64,000 nt of DNA from Candidatus Aenigmatarchaeota archaeon (GTDB lineage Archaea > Aenigmatarchaeota > Aenigmatarchaeia > CG10238-14 > SCSR01). Below, in pieces: positions 38,236 through 62,782 of this stretch (positions are counted from its first letter, which is position 1; each line of letters begins with the position of its first letter). The DNA lies in NCBI GenBank assembly GCA_016181005.1, contig JACPAE010000002.1, positions 62,001 through 126,000 on the forward strand, in the 5' to 3' direction. The notes under the pieces were generated by a model. That model ran no database searches. It worked only from the letters and a program-made list of their open reading frames with translations, and was not told the origin of the DNA. Made by a program: the position numbers and the translations under genes.

Positions 38236-38325
38236 ATGAGAGAAATGGATAGAAAGGAGAGGCTTGAGGAGTTCCTTAAGAGAAATAGAAGGTTTTTCGA
38301 AAAAATGGCAACTAGGCTCAAGTAA
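38236..38325 (+). CDS. 29-aa basic amphipathic peptide, uncertain
   Basis: MREMDRKERLEEFLKRNRRF then FEKMATRLK. An ATTTAAAT box is centred about 28 bases before the ATG, so a leaderless mRNA would start at the codon. The sequence would form one long charged helix. Its stop overlaps the end of the split PIN gene by 8 bases. Very short, so it could also be chance. Confidence 0.35.
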   Translation: MREMDRKERLEEFLKRNRRFFEKMATRLK

Positions 38326-38517
38326 ACATTTTCCTTAATTCCGGATAAGTCATGATCTTCTCGTATAACTTATGGATTCTGACGACTTCAACCAAATTCA
38401 AATCTCCAGTTAATAAATAGGCGTCTTCATTCATTGCTATAAATATATGCTGGAAATTGATAACTGTTCTTAACCTCAAAGGCATCGAATATACTATCTC
38501 TAATAGTCTAGCATCTG
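38318..38517 (-). pseudogene. PIN-domain toxin-like gene, 3' part (split by insertion)
   Basis: C-terminal half of a PIN nuclease. Reading frame after the duplication (DAR) gives LLEIVYSMPLRLRTVINFQH and IFIAMNEDAYLLTGDLNLVE, carrying the last conserved Asp pair, and ending ELRKMFT. The upstream part of the apparent 76-residue frame (MTLSPVIATLP) comes from the inserted element. Joining it to the fragment at 40006-40297 restores a PIN protein of about 158 residues. Confidence 0.8.
38506..38517 (+). repeat. 12-bp target-site duplication, left copy
   Basis: GTCTAGCATCTG, identical to 40006-40017. It flanks the inserted element and is the part of the PIN gene shared by both halves. Confidence 0.85.
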
Positions 38518-38569
38518 GCAGTGTCGCAATAACGGGTGATAGGGTCAAAATGTCGAATGAGGGTGATAA
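38518..38569 (+). repeat. left terminal inverted repeat of the inserted element
   Basis: About 48 bp with two internal copies of TGTCG...GGGTGAT (38521-38541 and 38551-38569). It pairs with the right end at 39956-40005: block 1 matches about 15 of 20 positions and block 2 about 16 of 18. Two repeated subsites per end would suit two transposase-binding sites. Confidence 0.75.
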
Positions 38570-38729
38570 TCTGACGAACTACTTTTTAAGCTTGAAAATT
38601 CAATTTTTATCAAGATATACGTGGGGAATATTTACTATGATTTACGTAGTTTTGTCATATTTGTCAACCCACATAACATACTTTTAAGTTTAGCTAATCT
38701 TATTAACAATCCTTTAAGAGGCAATTAAA

Positions 38730-39209
38730 ATGGTTTATCTTGCTATAATTAGCCTTATAGCATATGCAATTGGTGTATTTTTATTTGCTGTGGCAATTTA
38801 TTTTAATTTAAAAAAAGACAAAGAAAAATATCGAACTGCTTTGAAATATTCTCTTTATGCGTTGTTTTTATTTATATCTGCTTTAATATTGTCTATAATA
38901 ACAAATGACCCAATACCATATTTCAATGTTTTAATGATTGTGGGTGTTTTTACATTTGGTATAGCTTTTCCTATTATATTTCCAACACTCATTGCCAATG
39001 AAGTAAAAAGGGAACTAGGTGAAAAAGAAGAAATTCATTATAGAAAGCTTTCAGAAAATGAGGCCAAAGAAGAAATTTCAGAATATCTTAAACATAAAAA
39101 AGGTAATGTTTGGATTGAGGATGTAATAAACGATTTAAAAATTGAACCTGAAATAGTTGTTAAGATTATAAAAGTATTTCATAAAAAAAATAAAATTAAA
39201 GAAGTGTAA
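38730..39209 (+). CDS. membrane protein with C-terminal winged-helix domain (element cargo)
   Basis: A 159-residue protein. Three hydrophobic segments (about residues 3-26, 41-63 and 69-90) are followed by a charged linker and a C-terminal domain (EEISEYLKHKKGNVWIEDVI, then KIEPEIVVKIIKVFHKKNKI) predicted as a winged helix. A membrane-anchored DNA-binding or sensor protein is possible. The next gene follows after 3 bases. Unknown family. Confidence 0.65.
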   Translation: MVYLAIISLIAYAIGVFLFAVAIYFNLKKDKEKYRTALKYSLYALFLFISALILSIITNDPIPYFNVLMIVGVFTFGIAFPIIFPTLIANEVKRELGEKEEIHYRKLSENEAKEEISEYLKHKKGNVWIEDVINDLKIEPEIVVKIIKVFHKKNKIKEV

Positions 39210-39212
39210 TAA

Positions 39213-39401
39213 ATGGCTGACCATTTTACATTAGGTGAAACACTTAAGGGAGATAAGATATTTTTAGAAGCTGGATTCATACCAACACCAAGAGAAATTA
39301 AAATAGGTAAACACCATAGCTATCGAACATATGGTGAAACAAATGCAACTGCATATATATCTAAACCATTTCAATGGACAAATAAAACACCAATTAAATA
39401 A
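39213..39401 (+). CDS. hypothetical protein (62 aa, element cargo)
   Basis: Not recognised. Hydrophilic (MADHFTLGETLKGDKIFLEA ... THE C-terminal part is Thr/Lys-rich). Follows the membrane protein by 3 bases and is probably co-transcribed. Could be a soluble partner of that protein. Confidence 0.5.
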   Translation: MADHFTLGETLKGDKIFLEAGFIPTPREIKIGKHHSYRTYGETNATAYISKPFQWTNKTPIK

Positions 39402-39408
39402 TCGGTAA

Positions 39409-39549
39409 TTATTTTTTACGTATCTCTTTCTTTAATGAGAGTTCAATTAAATCAGAAAGAGTCAGATTCTCTTCAATGGCATAATGTTTAGCTTCTTTCA
39501 ATACATCTGGATGAATTTTTATTGTGGTTGGTATTCTTCCGCTTACCAT
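39409..39549 (-). CDS. ribbon-helix-helix (CopG-like) protein, 46 aa
   Basis: ATG 39549 to TAA 39409: MVSGRIPTTIKIHPDVLKEA then KHYAIEENLTLSDLIELSLK and KEIRKK. The TTIKIHP beta strand, helix DVLKEAKHYAIEEN and second helix LSDLIELSLKKEI match RHH DNA-binding domains, which are often antitoxins or plasmid/transposon regulators. No partner toxin is adjacent. Located inside the inserted element. Confidence 0.75.
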   Translation of the reverse strand: MVSGRIPTTIKIHPDVLKEAKHYAIEENLTLSDLIELSLKKEIRKK

Positions 39550-39593
39550 AAATACATATTACCCTACTACTATTTATACTTATAGTAATACAT

Positions 39594-39824
39594 ATGTCAG
39601 ATGTACAAAATCTAAGACAAATAAAAGGATATTCGATTCTCGCCAAAGGCGATATACCCGTAATGATTAACAAGGAGAATTTCCTAGTCCCGTCTCAATT
39701 AAACCACAGCAAATACAAGGTAATCCACTTGGACGGTTGGACTTGCGAGTACATGAATTTTATAAAGAGGAAACAACTATGTAAGCACATATACACGACA
39801 AAGAAATTGATTTTGAAGACATAG
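39594..39824 (+). pseudogene. SWIM zinc-finger fragment, transposase-like remnant
   Basis: 76 residues: GYSILAKGDIPVMINKENFL then VPSQLNHSKYKVIHLDGWTC then EYMNFIKRKQLCKHIYTTKK. The C-terminal part matches the SWIM pattern CxCx(n)CxH with the second Cys changed to Tyr (WTCEYMNF, CKHI). SWIM fingers precede the catalytic domain in some archaeal transposases. Nothing of a catalytic domain follows, so it looks like a decayed or minimal fragment. Confidence 0.55.
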
Positions 39825-39943
39825 GAATTGTATTGCATTTTATTGATACAACCAAAAAAATAGACGAACTTATTTCAATAAGTTATTATCCAGATGATAC
39901 TATACTAGTTCGTGAAGTAAGATACTCGAAAAATTACCATTAG
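39785..39943 (+). other. 52-codon open frame without a start codon
   Basis: Follows the SWIM fragment in another frame and begins after TAA 39782-39784: IDFEDIGIVLHFIDTTKKID then ELISISYYPDDTILVREVRY then SKNYH. It has protein-like alternation of hydrophobic and charged residues but no ATG/GTG/TTG start. Possibly the tail of a frameshifted gene in the element. Confidence 0.35.
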
Positions 39944-39955
39944 TAATAATTCGTT

Positions 39956-40005
39956 TCTATCACCCTCGTGCGACACCCCTAAAAATCACCCTTAATTAAG
40001 ACAAT
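39956..40005 (-). repeat. right terminal inverted repeat of the inserted element
   Basis: Read on the minus strand from 40005 it begins ATTGTCTTAATTAAGGGTGA and has a second block TGTCGCACGAGGGTGATAG, matching the left end. The outer block is more diverged than the inner block. Confidence 0.75.
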
Positions 40006-40297
40006 GTCTAGCATCTGTATCGAATCTTTCTATAAACTTGCAGTTTAAGCTTTCCATAAACTGTTCCCAGACAGGCTCTATTTCATGCTTTTTCATGCCA
40101 AAGGCGGCGACCAACTCTCTTGCTATTTCAACCTTTGTTAAGATTGATGTAACAAATTCGATTTCGTTTGACTTGGCAGTCAAAAACTGAAATTTATTTG
40201 GTATCTTTACAGCCTCTTTATTTCTGATCACCTTTGCTTCATTGATAAAGAAATCTAAGATAGTATTTGTGTCCAAATAAATTTTTATTTTGTCCAT
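39992..40297 (-). pseudogene. PIN-domain toxin-like gene, 5' part (split by insertion)
   Basis: N-terminal half of a PIN nuclease. MDKIKIYLDTNTILDFF carries the first catalytic Asp, then FVTSILTKVEIARELVAAFG the acidic helix. After FDTDAR the frame enters the element and stops (HCLN). PIN proteins such as VapC are RNases in toxin systems. The fragments here lack a functional join, so the gene should be inactive. Confidence 0.8.
40006..40017 (+). repeat. 12-bp target-site duplication, right copy
   Basis: GTCTAGCATCTG, identical to 38506-38517. On the minus strand it encodes part of TDAR in the PIN protein. Confidence 0.85.
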
Positions 40298-59840: not shown

Positions 59841-62782
59841 TTATCCACTCCCCCTTATTCCAGAGGCAATCTTCCTGAACTTGGCGGCAAGGGGCCTTTC
59901 CTGCCTCCTGGACTTGATCAGGTACGCTGCTAATACAACTATGGCAATCGCCCCGATTATAATTATCACCGTGGCGCCTGCAATTGGAGCTATGCTTAGC
60001 ACAGACTCGCTTATGAAGACATCCTCGCCCCAGTTTACGACAGAAGTCCCTATGTAATCTCCAGGCAATGCGTCTTCCGGCACCATGATCGAGAATTTGA
60101 ATTCCTTTCTTTCATGCGGCTGGATTACCGCTTCTATCTTTTGCGGGTCCATCTTCCATCCTGAAGGAAGCTGCATGGTGAATTCCAGCTTCTTCGGCGC
60201 TTCGCCCGTGTTTTCAATCACCAGCCTTCCTACTGAAGATTTTCCTGAATACAGCGGGGAAATTTTTATTTCTGCTATCTTCAGCCCCGTGGGTATCTTC
60301 GTCTCGATTATCTTCAGCTCCTTCAGGGGCAGGTAGATGTAGGTCGTGAATTCGCTCAGGATTCCTTTGGTCACATACTGTAACTCCCTTGTGTCATTTA
60401 CTTTCAAGTCCTTGAGGTTCCATTGCACCAGCGGGTCGTCCCTGAGAATTTCGTCTGGATACGGATTAAATTCCACGTCTGCCGCTGATGTTGCAAGCTT
60501 CTTCGGTATTTCTTCCTGGACTTGGACAAGCTGGTGGTATTTGACGGGATTGTCTACATCCAGGATAATCTTCGACTTGTTCAACTCATAATCCAGTTGG
60601 ACAGTCCTTGTAACTATAGGTTTGTCATAAGTAACTGGATAGTTCTTGACTCTCACTATCATGAAATTGGAGTCTTCCACCTGGCTGTTCTTCAGCGTTA
60701 CCAGCATTTTGTAATCCCCAGGCTCTGTGTTCTTCGGGACGGTTATTATCAGGTTGAATCCTTTTGTTTCATGCGCCTCCAAATTTAATGACTTGGGGAC
60801 GACGGACACCCACTCTGCCGGGACTCCAGAGACCTCGACATGTACGTCAGTTAATTTGGTTCCCTCCTTATTTTTCACAACTATTCCCTCAACGGCGCTT
60901 TGGCCGGCAGAGATTTCCCTGAGGACTGACCAACCGACGAACTCCACCTTGACCGTAGGCAATGCGGATATTGTTCCGCCTCCACCGCCTGCTCCTCCTG
61001 ATGGTGCTGGCCCTGAAGGTGCTGATGAAGTGGAGTATATTCCGAAGAGGCTGAAATGGGATACGTTTGCCCAGACATAGTTAGTCGATGTTTCTACTCC
61101 TGTACTGGATTCTTGTTGCCAGCTGCTTGTGGTTGTGTTGTAGAACCATATCTTCAGTCCTGATTCCGTCACGCCTGCAGATGCTATTTCTGCGTCTGTA
61201 TAGGAAATGTTGAGCCAATACCATCTCAAGTTGTTTGTTATGTTCGGGCTTGCTGTTATGTGGATGAATTTAAGCTTGCTTTGGCCACTTATCGTCTGGT
61301 TGACAACCGAGCTGAACTCGGCAACTCCTATGCCTCCTTCCTGACTTGAGTTCAGGACAATGCTTATGTTAGATGTTGTTGTAGAGCTTGTATTTGCGAT
61401 TATTAAAGTGGGTGTATCGACTGCGAAGCTTATCGAAGTATTGGTGTAGTTTCCTATGAGCACATTTGCGGCTGAACTGACGTTGAAGAATTTTGTCATG
61501 TTTATTGTCGCCCTGCCATCGAACAGAACTCTGCCTTCTGCACGATAGTTGTCTGCAGAGAGATTTATTGAATTGGTGAATGTTATAATTGTTTTAGACT
61601 GACCTTGGATCAATGATGTGTTTGTGGAGTTTACAGTTTTAACAAGACTTCCAGTTGAGTTGTAAATTTCTACGCCCGTGCTTGCATTCAGATCGACATT
61701 GCCTGTATTCTTCACGTTTATATCAAATTCTACAAATTCTCCCTGGACAACAGATGCTGTTGGTACTGTGAAGGTTGCGCTTACTGTTTTGAAGGACGGT
61801 GAGGCCAAGGCTGTAACTAGGAATTGTAATGAGGTGATTCTTTGGAAAAGGGACAGTCTAGATGTTATGCCATCCAAATCCAACGATTGAGTTATCATTC
61901 TCGGATAAGTAATAAGCCTTTGTAGAGCTTCAGCAATTGAAAAGGAATCTGTGATTGAGCGCAAGACGGTTGCTATTCTGATTGAGATTTCTTCGAATGA
62001 AAATGAAGATTGGATGTTTCTTGAAAAGCTGATTATTCTTTGCGAGATTTCTGTGAAATCCATGGCATTTGTCGCTAATCTTACATTGGTCAACAATGTC
62101 ACTATGTTGTCAGTTAAATCAATGGCCAGAGTCGACGATATATTTGTGATAACGCTTGCCACTGCAGTTATTCTTTCAGTAATTGAAAGAGACTGGGAAA
62201 CAGCTCTAATGAATGAGGCTAATCTTTGTGCGGTTTCTGAGAGGTCTATGGATTGGGTGATCTGTACAGCTTCTGTGAGGTCGAATGATTGGGTTATGTT
62301 TCTAGGTATCCTCATAAAAGCCTGAATGGATTCTGCCAGATCGATAGACTGGGTTATGCTTCTGGCGAAGGATGCAAGGCGGGTCATGGCATCAGTTATG
62401 TCGAGGGATTGGGTGATTTGGAATACACGGGTGGTGAAGGTTGAGATCGAGTCTGCCAGATCGATAGACTGGGTTATCGAATATAGACGGGTAACGAATG
62501 CCATGATGCTGTTTGTCAGGTTTATTGAATTCGTGAGGCTGCGGATGAACGAGACTAGATTTGAGGTTGTTTCTGTAAGACCTATCTCGATCGTGTTTAG
62601 TCTAATATTTGCCAGTAAATAGGTGATATTGTCAGTAATATCAAGAGATTGTGTTACTGAACGTGGAAAAGATTGTAAAGCAGCTGCAGTTATTCTTTCA
62701 GTAATTGAAAGAGACTGGGAAACAGCTCTAATGAATGAGGCTAATCTTTGTGCGGTTTCTGAGAGGTCTATGGATTGGGTGA
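59841..62782 (-). CDS. giant 20-residue-repeat surface protein, downstream part (after frameshift)
   Basis: Reading frame from the junction at about 62782 to the stop. If the frameshift is real this part starts at ATG 62504 at the earliest. It contains the last repeats (to about base 61832), CARDB-like domains (NVKNTGNVDLNASTG), a PGF-pre-PGF-type segment (WFYNTTTSSWQQESSTG, then NVSHFSLFGIYS), a Gly/Pro/Ser linker, two more beta-sandwich domains of the NEW3 type and a C-terminal TM helix (IAGATVIIIIGAIAIVVLAA) with a basic tail (KSRRQERPLAAKFRK). It is anchored to the membrane with the repeats outside. Confidence 0.82.
62162..62260. repeat. 99-bp direct repeat, copy 1
   Basis: Identical by eye to 62684-62782 over 99 bases, from CTGCAGTTATTC to GATTGGGTGA. 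It covers several repeat units of the surface protein. Confidence 0.9.
62684..62782. repeat. 99-bp direct repeat, copy 2 (ends at frameshift)
   Basis: Second copy of the 99-bp block. Its right end (GATTGGGTGA) coincides with the point where the reading frame changes, followed by AGATCGATAGACTGGG. A mis-joined repeat, either natural recombination or assembly, is the simplest explanation. Confidence 0.85.

Follow-up and report, generated by a model that had tools for sequence, protein, structure and literature searches.

In the 64,000-nt stretch of DNA analysed here (the window), a PIN-like gene on the minus strand lies in two parts, the 5' half at 40017-40297 and the 3' half at 38318-38508, and between them stands an insert of 1,492 bp (38517-40008), hereafter E1. 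The insert has a G+C content of 30%, against 43% in its surroundings, and the 8-bp target site TAGCATCT is duplicated on its two sides, at 38509-38516 and 40009-40016. Since E1 and a single copy of the duplication together measure exactly 1,500 bp, the reading frame of the gene is arithmetically kept, in line with the original prediction that removal of the insert restores it.

The same prediction had regarded the two segments as halves of one gene, and their use as separate queries bears this out. Each half matches one continuous ORF in an intact paralogue of the same 740-kb genome (G000:C5:36215), on whose locus positions 1501-1785 correspond to the first half and 1783-1977 to the second, in the same frame and end to end, with identities of 56% and 51%, respectively. 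Each half also matches single intact ORFs in relatives (G063, G005, G074 and G122), so that uninterrupted copies exist both in the host genome and elsewhere, and the identity of the 3' half to the second half of the intact paralogues is 46-51%. The Pfam PIN match of the intact copies is weak (6e-4, below the cut-off), and for this reason we call the gene PIN-like and consider its toxin activity putative.

Both ends of E1 carry the doubled TGTC…GGGTGAT subsites that had been predicted for them. The left end (38517-38567, plus strand) reads GGCAG, TGTCGCAATAACGGGTGAT, a spacer and TGTCGAATGAGGGTGAT, with subsites at 38522-38540 and 38551-38567, while the right end (39959-40008, minus strand) reads GACAT, TGTCTTAATTAAGGGTGAT, a spacer and TGTCGCACGAGGGTGAT, with subsites at 40003-39985 and 39975-39959. 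The borders were assigned by comparing the tips with those of E2, a second element of the same genome described below. A 12-bp repeat is indeed present at both joints, but the claim that all of it is duplicated target did not survive this comparison: its GTC is part of the right tip (...GACAATGTC) and its final G part of the left one (GGCAG...), leaving a duplication of 8 bp, with the remaining positions matching by chance; a 9-bp duplication was dropped in the same way. A lone TGTCGAGGGATTGGGTGAT at window 62399-62417 has no partner subsite and is probably fortuitous.

The ORFs expected in the interior of E1 are all present. The largest, at 38730-39209 (plus strand), encodes a 159-aa membrane protein with a C-terminal winged-helix-like part, whose last 90 aa have counterparts of 131-132 aa in other Aenigmatarchaeota (E 1.7e-13); the two best of these counterparts have no visible element ends beside them. 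A membrane protein of G079 looks similar to this cargo by eye, and the similarity is insignificant (E 0.6). A 62-aa ORF belonging to no family follows at 39213-39401 (plus strand) and, at 39409-39549 on the minus strand, a 46-aa ribbon-helix-helix-like (RHH) ORF (DUF6364, E 1.5e-5, below the cut-off), which runs divergently from a transposase remnant at 39594-39824 (plus strand). Because in G079 an IS6-like transposase has a comparable divergent RHH gene as its neighbour, and in G089 and G092 the transposase is preceded by a divergent ORF of 47-48 aa, the RHH gene of E1, formerly counted in a membrane/regulator module, would probably be a former transposase-linked regulator and not cargo. The remnant itself, described at first as a SWIM scrap of a possible transposase, can be assigned more precisely: since it aligns to the N-terminus of relatives that pass the IS6 cut-off, it is, as judged by sequence comparison, the N-terminus of an IS6-like transposase, with its SWIM finger, in a decayed state. 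Its identity to this transposase is about 53%, and to the G228 protein in particular 54% (E 3.5e-19), and it has lost the second Cys of its C-x-C pair (CxC changed to CEY). At 39785-39943 (plus strand) an open frame of 52 codons, which lacks a good start codon, is a probable remnant of another passenger gene. Against models of defence systems, the passengers gave weak matches only.

Other copies with the same ends had been anticipated, and a search by the ends found one in the host genome. E2 (G000:C2:87197-87920, 724 bp) has the ends of E1, its own 8-bp duplication (GGTATGCC) and a different cargo, a 161-aa predicted secreted protein; a small membrane-protein ORF appears to be cut by it in the 3' part (L003 5903-6169, G000:C2). 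The right tip is GACATTGTC in both elements, and on the left GGCAG or GGTTC precedes TGTC. The paired-end pattern TGTCN{8,9}GGRTGAN{9,12}TGTCG, which represents two subsites, has four matches in the 740-kb genome, forming the two inverted pairs of E1 and E2, and none in a reversed control; the paired subsites thus exceed chance, as all four matches fall in the two elements.

The same pattern matched twice in the same-genus genome G006 and in none of the other 14 genomes of the family, and a scan of 156 genomes of the phylum added G127 and G079; matches in G063, G096, G113 and G143 lack the second subsite and were discarded as chance. A stricter pattern, run over all GTDB contigs, recovered both G006 ends and matched three Thermoplasmatales MAGs; its bacterial matches (Stackebrandtia, Streptomyces) and one in a viral contig were put down to chance, since their tips do not fit and their number is about the expected one. 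Among 80 Thermoplasmata genomes, six contain the pattern. The element of G216 is complete (811 bp, duplication TGAGATAC) and encodes a predicted secreted protein of 171 aa besides a relic of the transposase C-terminus; that of G228 is also complete (2.08 kb, duplication of 8-9 bp). In G016, G017 and G195 a single end is recognisable, with no partner within about 20 kb, and the paired end of the Thermoplasmatales genome G017 is immediately followed, on its inner side, by a third TGTCGGGTGAT-like motif (L032, around 14246). Several elements are truncated by contig ends (G006 C1:1-380 and C7:35664-35860; G127 C11:11485-11919; G079 C45:1-511), as repeats are in short-read MAGs, and copy numbers in MAGs are therefore underestimated. 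One G006 element (L017 1-301) shows a 74-aa zinc-ribbon-like passenger and then the start of an ORF (MGTSLKQIFTNPTIVNQIKSKLPK) before the contig ends. In G006 (L018 7285-7665) and G008 (L092 1938-2569) elements that differ in end type are found immediately upstream of one gene, an ORF of about 115 aa adjoining a CDC48-like ATPase; the common position reflects either an old insertion that both genomes share or the choice of a promoter region as preferred target. That Aenigmatarchaeota and Thermoplasmata have such closely similar ends suggests that elements may have been exchanged horizontally.

In an alignment of 23 ends, taken from 14 genomes, the layout tip-TGTC-GG(G/T)TG is shared by nearly all. 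Most tips are GGTTCTGTC or similar, the right tips in the host genome and G006 are GACATTGTC or GACACTGTC, and one further tip is CGTTC. The GG tips with a TGT motif around position 6-8 that characterise IS6 elements are thus found here, except that the right tips of E1 and E2 start with GA, which counts against an IS6-like reading. The 8-bp target duplication typical of that family is exact in four elements, E1 (TAGCATCT), E2 (GGTATGCC), G216 (TGAGATAC) and G089 (CGTTTTTC), measures 8-9 bp in one, is imperfect in G092 and absent from G090.

Full-length relatives with a transposase, which the original prediction had proposed to look for, do occur. In autonomous members the enzyme is a protein of about 375 aa made of a SWIM zinc finger, a zinc ribbon, an HTH and a DDE domain. 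The G228 element encodes such a SWIM/zinc-ribbon/HTH/IS240-type DDE protein, broken by frameshifts, and three passenger ORFs with CxxC zinc-ribbon-like motifs. A search of the phylum with the N-terminal part of this protein led to intact relatives, including those of G089 (378 aa) and G008 (374 aa), which score 125.2 and 131.4 bits, respectively, with NCBIfam transpos_IS6 (cut-off 125); Pfam DDE_Tnp_IS240 (PF13610) is above its cut-off for G089, G008 and G228 (2e-16 and 4e-20 reported). In G228 and G089, ends of this kind, the SWIM/zinc-ribbon/DDE transposase and passengers are thus united in one element. The intact transposases with ends found in the host phylum have a sister end type (GGTTG...), not GGGTGAT, and the three IS240-type transposases of G079, tried as partners, have no paired ends.

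E1 retains only the SWIM N-terminus of its transposase, and apart from this scrap the host assembly (about 92% complete) contains no match to PF13610 or to the SWIM transposase; the enzyme may be encoded in the missing 8% or so of the genome or may possibly be delivered from outside. The PIN-like halves and the 8-bp repeats flanking E1 are undecayed, which points to a recent entry of E1, probably already without most of its transposase, and suggests that a transposase was recently available.

The cargo varies from element to element: E1 carries a membrane/winged-helix protein, E2 and G216 secreted proteins, G127 a retropepsin-like protein, G089 and G092 zinc-ribbon/membrane proteins and G090 an archaeal ATPase (ATPase_2, 2e-14). 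Cargo was therefore rightly predicted, whereas a single fixed module was not found. The elements of the family are 0.7-3.6 kb long, and almost every relative, autonomous ones included, has passengers. Three congeneric species, G089, G090 and G092, carry an element at the same chromosomal site, where identity is 77-81% in the left flank, 78-83% in the left end, 78-90% in the right end and 82-86% in the transposase, whose N-terminus is lost in G090. The segment from the transposase to the right end is unrelated in all three (blastn and tblastx), and that from the left end to the transposase is unrelated in G090. Because flank, ends and transposase are conserved next to unrelated cargo, it is far likelier that the cargo was swapped in place than that these segments diverged beyond recognition.

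Taken as a whole, these observations argue strongly that E1 derives from an IS6-like transposon lineage of archaea and is a form that carries passengers but is not autonomous. Against this stand the missing IS6-type transposase in the host assembly, the GA of the two right tips, the frameshifts in the G228 transposase, the sister end type of the intact transposases whose ends were found in the host phylum, and the absent or imperfect duplications in G090 and G092. We think it unlikely that E1 is simply an ordinary single-gene IS6-like insertion sequence that degraded in place, its supposed cargo being host genes that were inserted, or acquired, by chance at a later time; the transposase remnant would fit such a history, and IS6 members normally consist of a transposase alone (PMC7986276), but the undecayed PIN-like halves and repeats indicate a recent entry, and passengers occur in almost every relative, also in the autonomous ones.

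Outside the IS6 family, a Mutator/IS256-type or casposon-type element is very improbable. The SWIM zinc finger is known from MULE transposases, a 9-12-bp duplication, as first reported, would suit such elements, and Pfam Transposase_mut gives a weak, partial match (8e-5); however, the IS240 and IS6 models perform far better (2e-16 and 2.6e-36, over the cut-off), the duplication is 8 bp, and no cas1-like ORF lies within the 1.49 kb. We give hardly any credence to a tyrosine-recombinase or integron-like cassette, in which the direct repeat would be an attachment site and the doubled ends the arm sites of the recombinase: short direct border repeats, doubled inverted subsites and variable cargo recall such cassettes, but the border repeats differ in each copy (TAGCATCT, GGTATGCC, TGAGATAC, CGTTTTTC), like target duplications and unlike attachment cores, and the linked enzyme is a DDE transposase.

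The passenger-carrying IS6-like derivative can be pictured as follows. Autonomous relatives have two bipartite ends (GGTTC-TGTC-N7/8-CGG(G/T)TG... with an inner TGTC...GG(G/T)TG subsite) and a transposase of about 375 aa with passenger genes to either side; in E1 the transposase is lost beyond its first 70 or so codons, passengers occupying the space. An IS6-like transposase supplied in trans would bind the doubled subsites, the SWIM and zinc-ribbon extension reading the extra ones, and cut both tips, so that E1 would have inserted into the PIN-like gene with an 8-bp stagger. The cargo would be carried along and could be replaced, between the ends and the transposase, via recombination between related elements. 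A bolder idea, which we hold to be possible though improbable, is that the fixed ends and transposase form a platform for cargo exchange whose two "bays" are repeatedly refilled by the SWIM transposase acting on the doubled subsites rather than by ordinary homologous recombination, and through which genes also pass from DPANN archaea to Thermoplasmata or the other way.

IS6 elements are characterised by 8-bp repeats, GG tips, TGT motifs and a length of about 800 bp (PMC7986276, a 2021 review), and Harmer and Hall argued that the archaeal members are only distantly related and may form a separate family (PMC6807381). The lineage described here shares with IS6/IS26 (IS240) a DDE domain over the model cut-off, 8-bp duplications and GG...TGT tips; unlike IS6/IS26, it has an extra SWIM finger, two subsites per end and a length of 0.7-3.6 kb with passengers, compared with about 0.8 kb and a transposase alone. 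Zinc-finger extensions are confined in IS6 to clades h (all clostridial) and i, and the N-terminal zinc ribbon resembles that of clade h (PMC7986276). Passengers are the rule in this lineage, whereas that review lists a single passenger-carrying IS6 member, ISDsp3, with one passenger (PMC7986276); the G228 and G089 relatives resemble this transporter IS (tIS) in carrying both transposase and passenger genes, but here several genes stand in two places and vary between species. The two IS6 MITEs (227 and 336 bp, without ORFs; PMC7986276) likewise have ends and no transposase, whereas E1 and E2 carry protein-coding genes (ORFs of 159 and 161 aa).

Mobile insertion cassettes (MICs) and transporter ISs are defined kinds of element (PMC3129680), and E1, being a deletion derivative of an IS6-like element, is comparable to a MIC in its terminal inverted repeats, duplication, passengers, lack of a transposase and presumed trans-mobilisation (PMC3129680). 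It differs in that no cognate transposase was seen in its own genome, in an assembly about 92% complete. In MICs a cognate transposase in the same genome is usual, not strictly required. No description of MICs of the IS6 family or of DPANN archaea was found in the literature searched, nor one of SWIM-bearing IS6-like elements or of this lineage, in a search that covered subscription journals thinly and lay outside ISfinder.

The IS6 family is known chiefly for compact elements by which replicons are joined, and a branch in archaea whose transposase is extended, whose ends are doubled and whose passengers are routinely exchanged widens the range of the family. Its end signature is searchable and delimits foreign genes, and the branch raises the question of whether the cargo is swapped by the transposase itself. 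For DPANN archaea, with their reduced genomes, this lineage represents a concrete route of gene gain.
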